Below are positions 25,060 to 29,615 of a stretch of DNA of 64,000 nucleotides, piece by piece (positions within the stretch are counted from its first letter, which is position 1; every line of letters begins with the position of its first letter). The position numbers and the translations under genes were made by a program. A model generated the notes under the pieces. That model was not told where the DNA came from. It saw nothing but the letters and a program-made list of their open reading frames with translations, and made no database searches. The DNA is from Acidaminococcaceae bacterium. GTDB taxonomy: Bacteria > Bacillota > Negativicutes > Acidaminococcales > Acidaminococcaceae. The stretch lies in contig CALXRU010000006.1 in assembly GCA_944390935.1 (NCBI GenBank), positions 1 to 64,000 on the forward strand, written 5' to 3'.

Positions 25060-25084
25060 AAAAAACGGGCTTTGCGCCCGTTTT
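25060..25084 (-). terminator. Intrinsic terminator of radA
   Basis: ACGGGC/GCCCGT stem (25081-25065) with a T-run on the minus strand. It overlaps the last bases of the radA stop and closes the ctsR-clpC-radA operon. Confidence 0.82.
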
Positions 25085-26441
25085 AGTTAAAAATTGCACT
25101 CAAAGCTTCTTCAAGCGTTGCTGCCTGAATGATGCCCGAAGTCTTTTGTTCCATATTCAGTTTGCCCTTCGGCACTACAAATTTTGTAAAGCCAAGGTTC
25201 GCGGCATCGCGGATACGGCGTTCCGTATTGCTGACGCGGCGGATTTCACCGGTCAGCCCAACTTCGCCCACCGCCAGCACGCCGTGCGGCACGGCTTTGT
25301 TGCGGTAGCTGGAAACCAAGGCCGCCGCTGCCGCCAAATCCGCCGCCGGTTCTGTAATTTTCATGCCGCCGACGACGTTTAAGTAAGCGTCAAAATTGCC
25401 AAAGTCCATGCCTAATCGGCGCTCTAAAATCGCCAGCAGCATATTAACGCGGTTGTAATCAAAACCTACCGCCGTGCGGCGCGGCATGCCGTAAGGCGTT
25501 TTGGCAACAAGCGCCTGCACCTCAACCATAATCGGGCGGTTGCCCTCAAGGCAGGCGCACACAACGCTGCCCGGCGCATTTTCGGCGCGGTTTTCCAAAA
25601 ACAGACCCGCGGGGTTGGCAACTTCAATCAGCCCGCCCGCTTCCATGGAGAAAATACCGCTTTCACTGGTCGAACCGAAACGGTTTTTCAGCGCGCGCAG
25701 AACGCGGAAGGAATAAGAGCGGTCGCCTTCAAACTGCAAAACCACGTCCACCATGTGTTCCAGCAAACGCGGCCCTGCGATGTTGCCGTCCTTGGTGACG
25801 TGCCCGATGATGATAACGGCAATGCCCGTTGCCTTGGCAAAGCGCAGCAGCTTGGCGGTACATTCGCGTACCTGCCCCACGCTGCCAGCCGCCGTTTGCA
25901 GTTCGGCGTTATACATCGTCTGGATGGAATCTATTACAAGTATCTGCGGCTGCACTTCCTTTGCCTGCAACAGCACGGCGTCAAGGTCAGTCGCCGTCAT
26001 CACCAAAAGCGCCGCGCCCGGTTTCCCCAAGCGGCGCGCACGCATGGCGGTCTGCGCTTCGCTTTCTTCGCCCGACACATATAAAACTTTGATGTTGTTG
26101 GCGGCAAAGCGCATGCCAGCGTCCAAAAGCATTGTCGATTTGCCGATGCCAGGGTCGCCGCCAAGCAGCACCAAACTGCCCGGCACAAGCCCGCCGCCCA
26201 GCACGCGGTCAAATTCGTTGATGCCGGTTTGCAGGCGTTCTACTTCCGTCAGCATCACCTTATCCAGAGTTTTCGGCTTCGGCGCTTCCTGTGGCATTAA
26301 AAAGCTCTGCTGCGGTTTGGCAGGCGTTTCAATTTCCTCCGCCATGCTGTCCCAACTGCCGCATTCCGGGCAGCGCCCCAGCCATTTTGCGGAGCTGTAA
26401 CCGCAGTTCTGGCACACAAATTTAGTTTTTGTTCTGGCCAT
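25083..26441 (-). CDS. radA: DNA repair protein RadA
   Basis: RecA-like recombination ATPase/helicase for branch migration, 452 aa. N-terminal zinc finger FVCQNCGYSSAKWLGRCPEC (residues 8-27), Walker A GGDPGIGKSTMLLDA (about residue 94), the RadA-specific ALKNRFGSTSE (about 250), and a C-terminal Lon-protease-like domain (VGGMKITEPAADLAAAAALV and HGVLAVGEVGLTGEIRRV). It overlaps the end of clpC by 20 nt, so translation is coupled. Confidence 0.96.
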   Translation of the reverse strand: MARTKTKFVCQNCGYSSAKWLGRCPECGSWDSMAEEIETPAKPQQSFLMPQEAPKPKTLDKVMLTEVERLQTGINEFDRVLGGGLVPGSLVLLGGDPGIGKSTMLLDAGMRFAANNIKVLYVSGEESEAQTAMRARRLGKPGAALLVMTATDLDAVLLQAKEVQPQILVIDSIQTMYNAELQTAAGSVGQVRECTAKLLRFAKATGIAVIIIGHVTKDGNIAGPRLLEHMVDVVLQFEGDRSYSFRVLRALKNRFGSTSESGIFSMEAGGLIEVANPAGLFLENRAENAPGSVVCACLEGNRPIMVEVQALVAKTPYGMPRRTAVGFDYNRVNMLLAILERRLGMDFGNFDAYLNVVGGMKITEPAADLAAAAALVSSYRNKAVPHGVLAVGEVGLTGEIRRVSNTERRIRDAANLGFTKFVVPKGKLNMEQKTSGIIQAATLEEALSAIFN

Positions 26442-29133
26442 CGTTTACCTCCGCCGGCTGTATTTCCTCATGCGTTATTACAACTTCAACCTTTTTTGGC
26501 ATAAACTTAATTTTGCCGTTTTCGCCCACGCTGGCGCAGATGGTGTCGCCCGCCTTAAACCTGCCCGCCAGATACAAATCGCTGACAGGATCTTCCAGCA
26601 TTTTACGCACGGCGCGGCGCAAAGGCCTTGCACCGTAACGGGTATCGCTGCCCTCTTTTACCAGCAGGTCGCGCGCTTCCTGCGTAATTTCCAGCGTCAG
26701 GCCGTTTTCCGCCAGTTTGGCGCGCAGCTCGCGCAGCATGTTTTTAATAATCTGCACCAAATCGTCGTATTTCAATCTGTCAAAGACGGTAATCTCGTCC
26801 ACCCTGTTCAAAAATTCCGGGCGGAACACATTTTTAATCTCTGCCAGCACCTTATCCTTGCGGGAAGCTTCTTCCTCCGCGCCGACAAGACTGAAGCCCA
26901 GCGGTTTGGTATCCGCCAGCATTCTTGCACCGGCGTTGCTGGTCATAATAATCACGCAGTTTTTAAAATCAGTCGTGCGCCCCTGCCCGTCCGTCAGACG
27001 TCCATCCTCCATAATCTGCAAAAGCAGGTTAAATACATCCGGATGCGCCTTTTCAATTTCGTCCAGCAGGATGATGGAATACGGCCTTCTGCGCACAGCG
27101 TCAGTCAGCTGCCCGCCTTCTTCATAGCCGACATAGCCCGGAGGCGCGCCGACAAGGCGTGAAGCCGTGTGTTTTTCCATGTATTCGGACATATCAAAGC
27201 GGATTAACGCACGCTCGTCGCCGAACATATTTTCTGCCAGCGCTTTGGCCAGTTCCGTTTTGCCGACGCCGGTAGGGCCGAGGAACAGGAACGAACCGAC
27301 CGGCCTGTTTTTATCCTTAAAGCCTGCGCGCGCACGGCGGATTGCTTTGCTTACGGCTTCCACCGCCTCGTTCTGCCCGATAACGCGCTTGTGCAAATCG
27401 TTTTCCATGTGCAGCAGGCGCTCGCTTTCCGTCCGCGTAAGCTTTTGCAGCGGAATGTTCAGCCACTGCGAGATGACGGAGGCAATGTCCTCCTCCGTAA
27501 CCTCGGCGCGTTTGCTGATGGCGTTGTCATAGCTACCCTTTTCAAATTCCAGTGCCATTTCCAGAATGGCTTCGTGGTCGCGCAGCTGGGCCGCGCGCTC
27601 GTACTGCTGGGCGGCAATGGCTTCCGCCTTGTCGCGGCGTACCTGTACCAGCTCTTTCTCCTTTTCCACCACAGGGATGGAAAGTTTATAGTTTTGCAGC
27701 TTAACCTTGGCGCAGGCCTCGTCCATCAGGTCGATAGCCTTGTCCGGCAGGTTGCGGTCGGTAATGTAACGGTTGGAAAGTTTTACCGCCGCTTCCAGCG
27801 CAGCGTCCGACACATGCAGCTTGTGGAACTCCTCATACTTTGTGCGCAGCCCCTTCAAAATTGCCAGCGTTGCCTCTGCGTCCGGCGCGGAAACCATAAC
27901 CGGCTGGAACCTGCGCTCCAGCGCCGCGTCTTTTTCAATGTGCTTGCGGTATTCACTCAGCGTCGTTGCGCCGACAACCTGCAGCTCGCCCCTTGCCAGC
28001 GCCGGTTTGATGATGTTGGCAGCGTCCGTGCCGCCTTCTCCCGCGCCCGCGCCGATAATGGTGTGCAGTTCGTCGATGAACAGAATTATATCCTTGTTTT
28101 CCTTAATCGTTTCCAGAATATCTTTCAGGCGTTCCTCAAAATCACCGCGGTATTTTGCGCCCGCCACCAGGTAACCGATTTCCAGCGAAAACACGGTTTT
28201 GTTGCGCAATAAATCAGGCACTTTGCCTTCCACAATGCGCTGCGCCAGCCCTTCGGCGACGGAGGTTTTGCCGACGCCCGCCTCGCCGATAAGCACCGGG
28301 TTGTTTTTGGTGCGGCGGCACAAAATCTGGATAACCCTTTCAATTTCGTTTTCCCTGCCGATAACGGGGTCAATTTTGCCGGCTGCCGCCAAATCGTTCA
28401 GGTTGCGCCCAAACTCGTTCAAAACCTCCAGCGACATTTCCTCCGGCATATCGTCGTATTCCGGCATCTCCGCTTCTTCAAAGCCCGGCACGGCAGGCTG
28501 ATGCTCGCGGATGGAGCGGATAATCTGCCATACCTGTTCGGCAGTTATATTAAATTTGCGCAGCACGGTGCCGCCCATGCCCTTGTCCTCACGCAGAATG
28601 CCCATCAGCAAATGCTCCGATCCAACCTGCGGCGATTTTAAGGCTGCGGCGGTTTCGGCGGCAATTTCCAGCGCGCGTTTGGCACGCGGCGTGTAACCGA
28701 TAATAATCTGCAAATTACCTGCCGGGTCCATCATTTTTTCCAGTTCTTCCGCCACAGCGATAATATTAACGCCCAGTTTTTCCAGCACACGGATGCCGTA
28801 ACAGTCCTTTTCGTTCAGCAGCGCAAGCAGTAAATGCTCCGTGCCGAGATGGTCGTGCCCTCTGTCCAGCGCGCTGCGCATGGCATTCTCCAATATCGAG
28901 GACATACGCTTCGTAAAGCGGCGCAGTTCCGGCGTTTTCGGCGCGTCGCCGCCAAAAAATAAAGTTTCCAGCAGATTGCGTGCGTCAACGGCATGCCCCC
29001 TGCCCGCACCGACGGCGAAAGGCATCAGCTTTTCGGCGCAGTCGGCACACAGCCACTTATCTATCTGTTTATTGTTTACCATGCACACTACGTGCACGAC
29101 GGCTTCTTTTTTGCCGCATTTCTGGCATAACAT
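26422..29133 (-). CDS. clpC: ClpC ATPase with N-terminal McsA-like zinc-finger domain
   Basis: AAA+ unfoldase of the ClpCP protease, 903 aa from ATG 29133 (GAGGTGAGGG upstream; the GTG at 29142 is less likely). Residues 1-35 form an extra zinc domain, [18 protein letters not shown] then [10 protein letters not shown], with cysteines 3, 6, 29, 32 and a further C17; this is the N-terminal module of McsA. Clp_N repeats follow (about 70-212), then D1 ([30 protein letters not shown]), a UVR-type middle region ([19 protein letters not shown]), and D2 ([17 protein letters not shown]) with an LGF loop for ClpP. mcsA and mcsB, normally between ctsR and clpC, are missing. It begins 5 nt after ctsR. Confidence 0.95.
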
Positions 29134-29138
29134 TTCCC

Positions 29139-29546
29139 TCACCTCACAGACAACATCTTACTTATGGCATTCTGTAATACAGTTATTTTTTTCTTTTCAT
29201 CGGCGTTCATAATTTCCAGCATGTATTTTAACAGTGCATACTCTCGCCCTGTAACAACGCCGCGCTGCGCCCAGTGTTCCAAAAGGCTCTGCGCCGTTTC
29301 GCGGTGCTGCTCCTTTTTGGGCGGCGTTACGCGCACAATGCGCACAAAACCGCCGCTGCCCCTGCGCGATTCCACCAGATAGCCTTTTTCCGGCGTAAAG
29401 CGCGTGCTTAAAACATAGCTTATCTGCGACGGCGCGCACGATAATTTATCGGCCAGCTCGTTGCGCTGCACCAGCACGGTGTCTTCGCTGTCTTCCAGCA
29501 GCTGGCGCATAATAAAGTTTTCTATTGCATCAGCAAGATTTCTCAT
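29139..29546 (-). CDS. ctsR: Transcriptional repressor CtsR
   Basis: Class III heat-shock repressor, 135 aa, somewhat shorter than the Bacillus protein (about 150). N-terminal winged helix (NLADAIENFIMRQLLED, LADKLSCAPSQISYVLSTRF) with the glycine-rich wing ESRRGSGGFVRIVRV at about residues 58-72. The C-terminal dimerisation part ends ITVLQNAISKMLSVR. It heads the ctsR-clpC-radA operon; its promoter spacer contains two AGTC(A/G)AA half-sites, so autorepression is likely. McsB, which controls CtsR in Bacillus, has no gene here. Confidence 0.9.
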   Translation of the reverse strand: MRNLADAIENFIMRQLLEDSEDTVLVQRNELADKLSCAPSQISYVLSTRFTPEKGYLVESRRGSGGFVRIVRVTPPKKEQHRETAQSLLEHWAQRGVVTGREYALLKYMLEIMNADEKKKITVLQNAISKMLSVR

Positions 29547-29586: not shown

Positions 29587-29615
29587 ATTATATTTGACTT
29601 TTCGACTTTTGGCAA
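29587..29615 (-). promoter_or_regulatory. ctsR promoter with CtsR-like operator in the spacer
   Basis: Minus strand TTGCCA (29615-29610), 17-nt spacer, TATAAT (29592-29587). The spacer reads AAAGTCGAAAAGTCAAA, two AGTC(G/A)AA heptads on an 8-nt period; the classical CtsR box has GGTCAAA heptads on a 10-nt period, so this is a variant or coincidental match. Confidence 0.6.

Follow-up and report, generated by a model that had tools for sequence, protein, structure and literature searches.

How can a ClpC ATPase receive its substrates where the arginine kinase of its own operon is missing? McsB marks ClpC substrates with phospho-arginine, and adaptors switch ClpC on. The question is raised by a 64,000-nucleotide stretch of DNA from an Acidaminococcaceae bacterium (assembly GCA_944390935.1, contig CALXRU010000006.1, positions 1 to 64,000 of the forward strand; hereafter the window), in which ctsR is followed by a single gene for a full-length ClpC with an McsA-type zinc module at its N-terminus (Zn-ClpC), in place of mcsA, mcsB and clpC. 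We consider it fairly probable that Zn-ClpC is a ClpC that operates without adaptors and carries a targeting module at its N-terminus, resembling ClpE in its working and ClpG in its build.

The zinc module and the ClpC core

A preliminary description had read ctsR as being followed, after 5 nt, by one gene in which an McsA-like zinc domain of 35 residues is joined directly to Clp_N. The open reading frames, the Pfam domains and a profile search with residues 1-60 bear out both the gene order and the covalent junction; the CX2C...CX2C pairs are present as described, but the McsA-like stretch spans about 60 residues including the helix NLLETLFF, not 35. The cysteines C3, C6, C29 and C32 are spaced as CX2C-X22-CX2C, residues 1-60 match positions 1-58 of the 182 positions of the NCBIfam McsA profile (E 2e-6), and by phmmer they match PDB McsA 8wtb (E 1.6e-4), ahead of ClpE (E 0.074). 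In addition, the motif of the module is CxxCA, as in McsA, rather than the CxxCY typical of ClpE. As the four cysteines are invariant across 25 sequences, down to 31% identity, and the fusion occurs in 11 genera, the module is not a chance feature; the helix that follows it is conserved as well. The McsA and ClpE N-termini are homologous to the N1 domain of ClpG, which binds and targets aggregates and requires zinc for folding (PMC10641755). A low-confidence AlphaFold2 model of the isolated module (predicted local distance difference test score 71) has ClpG N1 8p66 as top PDB match (probability 0.96), with a weak E-value of 0.087, such that the fold is counted as supporting only. In one genome of genus g9 (G150, locus L046), the first CxxC is missing from the frame, probably through an in-frame deletion, which may be real decay or an assembly error.

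The open reading frame of the fusion gene, taken mechanically, opens at GTG 29142. The likely true start is ATG 29133, which is located 5 nt past the ctsR stop and directly after a strong ribosome-binding site (AGGTGAGG). Nearly all relatives share the MLC start, with a purine-rich ribosome-binding site shortly before it, and the ATG-LC start with its ribosome-binding site persists in relatives whose first 200 residues are only 31-40% identical. Because of the strong ribosome-binding site of ATG 29133, the zinc module is very likely translated as part of Zn-ClpC, and a start downstream of the module, at the Clp_N segment, is rejected on the strength of this Shine-Dalgarno sequence and the conservation of the start in relatives.

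By its core sequence Zn-ClpC classifies as a ClpC, and not as a ClpE, a ClpG or a full McsA, of which it holds the first third only. The core scores best against ClpC (869 bits, compared with 652 bits for ClpE), the top PDB matches are ClpC proteins, and the AlphaFold2 model of the N-domain matches the ClpC N-domain 2k77 (E 1e-10). The two-repeat Clp_N (Pfam), the AAA1-M-AAA2 core of ClpC type in the phylogeny and the ClpP-binding tripeptide LGF in D2 are all present. While a zinc module is shared with ClpE, Zn-ClpC possesses Clp_N and its core falls outside the ClpE clade; an origin of the core from ClpE is ruled out by the tree and the bit scores. The NCBIfam ClpG equivalog reaches 729 bits against a cut-off of 1900, with the match beginning at residue 75, and the full-length McsA profile 28 bits against a curated cut-off of 210.

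Table 1. Coordinates of the ctsR operon and its flanking features in the window
Feature	Position	Strand	Evidence
ctsR, repressor of class III heat-shock genes, 135 amino acids	29139..29546	-	Pfam PF05848, E 1e-33
Zn-ClpC, McsA-type zinc module fused to full-length ClpC, 903 amino acids	26422..29133	-	ATG start, Shine-Dalgarno AGGTGAGG
Zinc module, residues 1-60 (C3, C6, C29, C32; helix NLLETLFF 53-60)	28954..29133	-	NCBIfam McsA 2e-6; PDB McsA 8wtb 1.6e-4
Clp_N double repeat, residues 72-200; equivalents of the phospho-arginine-site Glu, E99 and E173	28534..28920	-	Pfam Clp_N, two stretches
AAA1 (D1), Walker A GEAGVGKT residues 283-290	27700..28425	-	Pfam, motif positions
M-domain with UVR motif at residues 509-519	27499..27699	-	Pfam UVR 7.9e-5, alignment
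AAA2 (D2), ClpP-docking LGF inside TKPLGFSL 742-749 (26887-26910)	26518..27498	-	Pfam AAA_2, ClpB_D2-small
radA, overlapping the 3' end of the fusion gene	25083..26441	-	Open reading frame; synteny in relatives
Promoter, predicted CtsR operator filling the spacer	29587..29615	-	-35 TTGCCA, 17-nt spacer AAAGTCGAAAAGTCAAA, -10 TATAAT

Absence of mcsB and origin of the fusion

That mcsB is missing from the ctsR operon, as initially described, extends to the entire genome and to the family. With the McsB kinase domain PF00217 as query across 250 genomes of the class Negativicutes, mcsB was not found in the genome of the window (assembly 88.8% complete) or in any of the 58 Acidaminococcaceae genomes sampled, many of which are rated 98-100% complete; the same search detected mcsB in 170 of the 250 genomes, including four of four from three sister families of the same order. 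The fused module is the sole McsA match in the own genome, and the presence of mcsA or mcsB elsewhere in the genome is rejected on the genome-wide and family-wide searches. The sister families have ctsR-mcsA-mcsB-clpC-radA and a ClpC without zinc module. The arrangement ctsR-[Zn-ClpC] occurs in 11 Acidaminococcaceae genera (g1-3, g5-10, g12 and g15), and whenever a family genome yielded clpC, the gene adjoined ctsR.

In a phylogeny of the core (403 columns), the fifteen Zn-ClpCs of the family form one clade (support 100/99) nested with the ClpCs of the sister families (support 96/97), and ClpE forms its own clade. As the Zn-ClpC clade nests among the ClpCs of the order, the fusion is local to the Acidaminococcaceae lineage, and it probably arose in place. 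Clade and gene order are observed directly; from them we infer the exact event and the parent of the module, namely a deletion within ctsR-mcsA-mcsB-clpC of the family ancestor by which mcsB was most likely lost and the opening ~60 codons of mcsA were fused to clpC. Such a deletion fits the unchanged flanks, which are the gene for a flavodiiron protein and ctsR on one side and radA, the next gene after clpC in the sister families as well, on the other.

A second ctsR-[Zn-ClpC] clade is made up of operons from another Bacillota family (G388 and G535 of f58) and from the contig L105 of an uncultured member of the Clostridia. A single origin of all ctsR-linked Zn-ClpCs is rejected (p-AU 0.0014 in the approximately unbiased test), and by this phylogenetic evidence zinc-ClpC arose at least twice in Bacillota. 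The mcsB search found no mcsB in G388 and G535, the two searchable genomes of the second clade, or in G556, and mcsB is present in G273, a member of that Bacillota family. A third type, in which a zinc module is combined with a Clp_N ATPase and the gene is clustered with hsp20 genes (L215 in G466, L213 in G560), falls outside the ClpC clade in the tree and is nearer to ClpG in type. One of these two loci includes a MerR/HspR-like gene, and G560 carries an ordinary mcsB and clpC besides. Other Negativicutes without detectable mcsB are found in f15 (g66, g75, g89), f28 (G175, G181), f10 and f9 (g55), and several of the mcsB-less Negativicutes outside the family show only a weak McsA match; these genomes possibly reflect further independent losses or fusions.

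CtsR control and changes after the fusion

With respect to regulation, CtsR carries its helix-turn-helix domain and the operon promoter an RGTCAAA direct repeat, as characteristic of a CtsR regulon, with two AGTCRAA repeats filling the 17-base promoter spacer of ctsR. The predicted operator has a period of 8 and not 10, and its first copy contains one mismatch (GTCGAA). The CtsR box of Bacillus subtilis has a 10-bp period, and this classical box was found neither in the window nor in the own genome. The operator AGTCRAAnAGTCAAA is present upstream of ctsR order-wide (L041-L098), including genera without clpC, and genome scans pick up a second copy in the clpB promoter, in many cases in the interval separating clpB from divergent lrgAB-like genes (L216-L220, L260, L262, L264, L268). 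As the reversed control pattern gives ~1.4 hits per genome, the position of the hits and not their number is the evidence, by which the predicted targets of CtsR are clpB and the ctsR operon itself.

In six genera (g4, taken as Acidaminococcus, g11, g13, g14, g16 and g18), ctsR is followed by radA with no clpC at the locus (L084, that is G073:C1:1026213-1032700, taken as A. fermentans VR4T, as well as L089, L091, L068, L074, L055, L080 and L090), and these genera have retained CtsR and its operator despite losing clpC, mcsA and mcsB. Representatives of the six genera possess one Clp_N protein each; two of these were scored and both exceed the curated cut-off for ClpB, and four are located in the ClpB clade of the tree. 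CtsR hence outlives McsA, McsB and ClpC, including in a cultured type strain, with clpB as the likely remaining target. Since Acidaminococcus keeps ctsR after the loss of clpC, derepression there requires neither McsB nor the fusion. CtsR itself is a thermosensor in B. subtilis, Lactococcus lactis and Geobacillus stearothermophilus (Elsholz 2010, as cited in PMC6305308), and by analogy McsB would be dispensable for starting CtsR derepression.

The fused proteins have subsequently eroded at the sites on which arginine phosphorylation and adaptors would act. Of 40 family proteins, 26 no longer have the second phospho-arginine site, which we take to be the Glu equivalent to B. subtilis ClpC E106 (replaced by Q, V, A or G; seven of 11 genera), and neither does one of four sister-family proteins; all 48 other Bacillota and all five other Negativicutes in the alignment retain it, a comparison set most of which is assumed, rather than checked one by one, to stem from mcsB-bearing operons. 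The equivalent of E32 is kept in all aligned proteins. The entire M-domain has been deleted at two separate positions on the tree, in g2, g9 and g15 and, elsewhere, in g6 (L069, L093, L046-L064 of g9, L083, L087 and L095). The M-domain holds ClpC inactive without adaptors (PMC13125188 and references there). Both losses are correlations, and are as one would expect had arginine phosphorylation and switching by adaptors become irrelevant.

A candidate mechanism and its place among known systems

The zinc module probably serves as a built-in targeting domain through which misfolded or aggregated proteins would reach the ring without arginine phosphorylation, with Zn-ClpC acting as an adaptor-independent ClpC(P) in the manner of ClpE and ClpP probably being the partner, as predicted from the LGF loop. 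ClpE is autonomous and degrades CtsR, and its N-terminal domain, which is stabilised by zinc, aids targeting (PMC13125188). That the module is a built-in adaptor, as proposed in the preliminary description, is plausible in view of the homologous ClpG N1 and ClpE N-terminal domains, which target substrates (PMC10641755; PMC13125188). CtsR would repress the operon from the operator inside the promoter and, as suggested by CtsR and ClpE biology, would come off when it senses heat itself, after which Zn-ClpC or a different Clp enzyme would remove or refold the repressor. By comparison with ClpE and ClpG, the zinc site would chiefly keep the module folded, and zinc loss in thiol stress would turn the module off. 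The chances appear evenly balanced for the broader proposal that uptake of the McsA zinc module freed ClpC from McsB by replacing arginine phosphorylation for delivery, that the phospho-arginine pocket and the M-domain switch then decayed, and that this happened at least twice in Bacillota, giving a ClpG-like machine on a ClpC.

Several observations weigh against this interpretation. The zinc-module tree, which has a long stem and whose 67 columns are too few to identify the parent, does not group the module with the McsA of the sister families, and direct descent of the module from the local mcsA is conjectural. The genus of the window retains both phospho-arginine Glu residues and the window protein keeps its M-domain, such that an adaptor, for example MecA, may still act on it. 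Furthermore, Enterococcus faecalis ClpE still degrades CtsR when its N-terminal domain is missing (PMC13125188), and the module therefore need not recognise CtsR. The same result speaks against the alternative, proposed earlier for McsA and L. lactis ClpE, of a zinc module whose chief role is to sense redox state, metal or CtsR activity, and which would bind CtsR, support repression and release CtsR on thiol oxidation, leading to induction. In favour of a sensor, all four cysteines are invariant, the gene lies beside ctsR wherever clpC was found in the family, ClpE has been suggested as a thiol sensor in bacteria lacking mcsAB (PMC5506225) and, according to the summary of Varmanen 2003 in PMC6305308, the ClpE of L. 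lactis brings repression back, a task that mcsA is able to take over. As CtsR and its operator persist in genera without the fusion, CtsR does not need the fusion, and overall a sensor role seems unlikely.

The reductive loss in the family of the other domains of mcsA, of mcsB, of the M-domain and finally of clpC, together with the g9 protein without its first CxxC, would agree with a module that is a passive, tolerated and non-functional relic of an mcsA-clpC deletion fusion, an explanation rendered improbable by the invariance of C3, C6, C29 and C32, the conserved helix and the emergence of the architecture at least twice. Even less credit can be given to a true ClpE that gained Clp_N and supplied both module and core: ClpE has the CX2C-X22-CX2C pattern, CtsR control and a weak phmmer match, but the bit scores, the nesting of the cores with local ClpC apart from the ClpE clade, the CxxCA motif and the better McsA match are all at odds with it. 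An McsB or substitute arginine kinase overlooked in the incomplete own assembly is the most far-fetched explanation, given the absence of mcsB from 58 of 58 family genomes, the success of the same search elsewhere in the class and a ctsR locus that is itself intact without mcsB.

Read as an adaptor-independent ClpC, Zn-ClpC provides a natural experiment, in the gut family Acidaminococcaceae, on an Hsp100 motor working without its usual adaptor. With the kinase lost in evolution, the motor keeps the zinc module, one of its phospho-arginine residues decays and deletion of the M-domain becomes possible, which allows a direct test of whether an McsA/ClpE/ClpG-N1 module alone is sufficient for ClpC autonomy. 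Zinc modules on Hsp100 ATPases (ClpE, ClpG) and CtsR control without McsAB (lactic acid bacteria) are already known; new is the ClpC-based zinc fusion in place of mcsAB within the ctsR operon, no report of which was found in the open-access papers searched.

Among the known systems, the ClpC of B. subtilis and Staphylococcus aureus shares with Zn-ClpC the operon position, Clp_N, the two AAA domains, the M-domain with UVR and the ClpP loop, and is the top PDB match. Compared with the ClpC of ctsR-mcsA-mcsB-clpC operons, Zn-ClpC has gained the N-terminal zinc module while mcsA and mcsB are gone, and its relatives dispense with the E106-type phospho-arginine residue and even with the M-domain. 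From McsA, residues 1-60 resemble the first zinc module and the next helix, whereas the second zinc pair and the UVR domain as such are missing and the partner McsB is absent. ClpE (E. faecalis, L. lactis, B. subtilis) likewise combines an N-terminal CX2C-X22-CX2C with a ClpP-type Hsp100 and is tied to CtsR in bacteria without McsB (L. lactis), for which mcsA can substitute in CtsR repression (Varmanen 2003, as cited in PMC6305308); however, it has no Clp_N, its core belongs to a separate clade and clpE is mostly monocistronic, whereas the Zn-ClpC gene follows ctsR. ClpG/ClpK display the same domain order of zinc N1, Clp_N-type N2, AAA1, M and AAA2, and ClpG N1 is the top, if weak, structural match of the module. 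In contrast to ClpG/ClpK, Zn-ClpC has a ClpC core, keeps the LGF ClpP loop and sits in the ctsR operon; judged from the sequences, its ClpG-like domain order is convergent.

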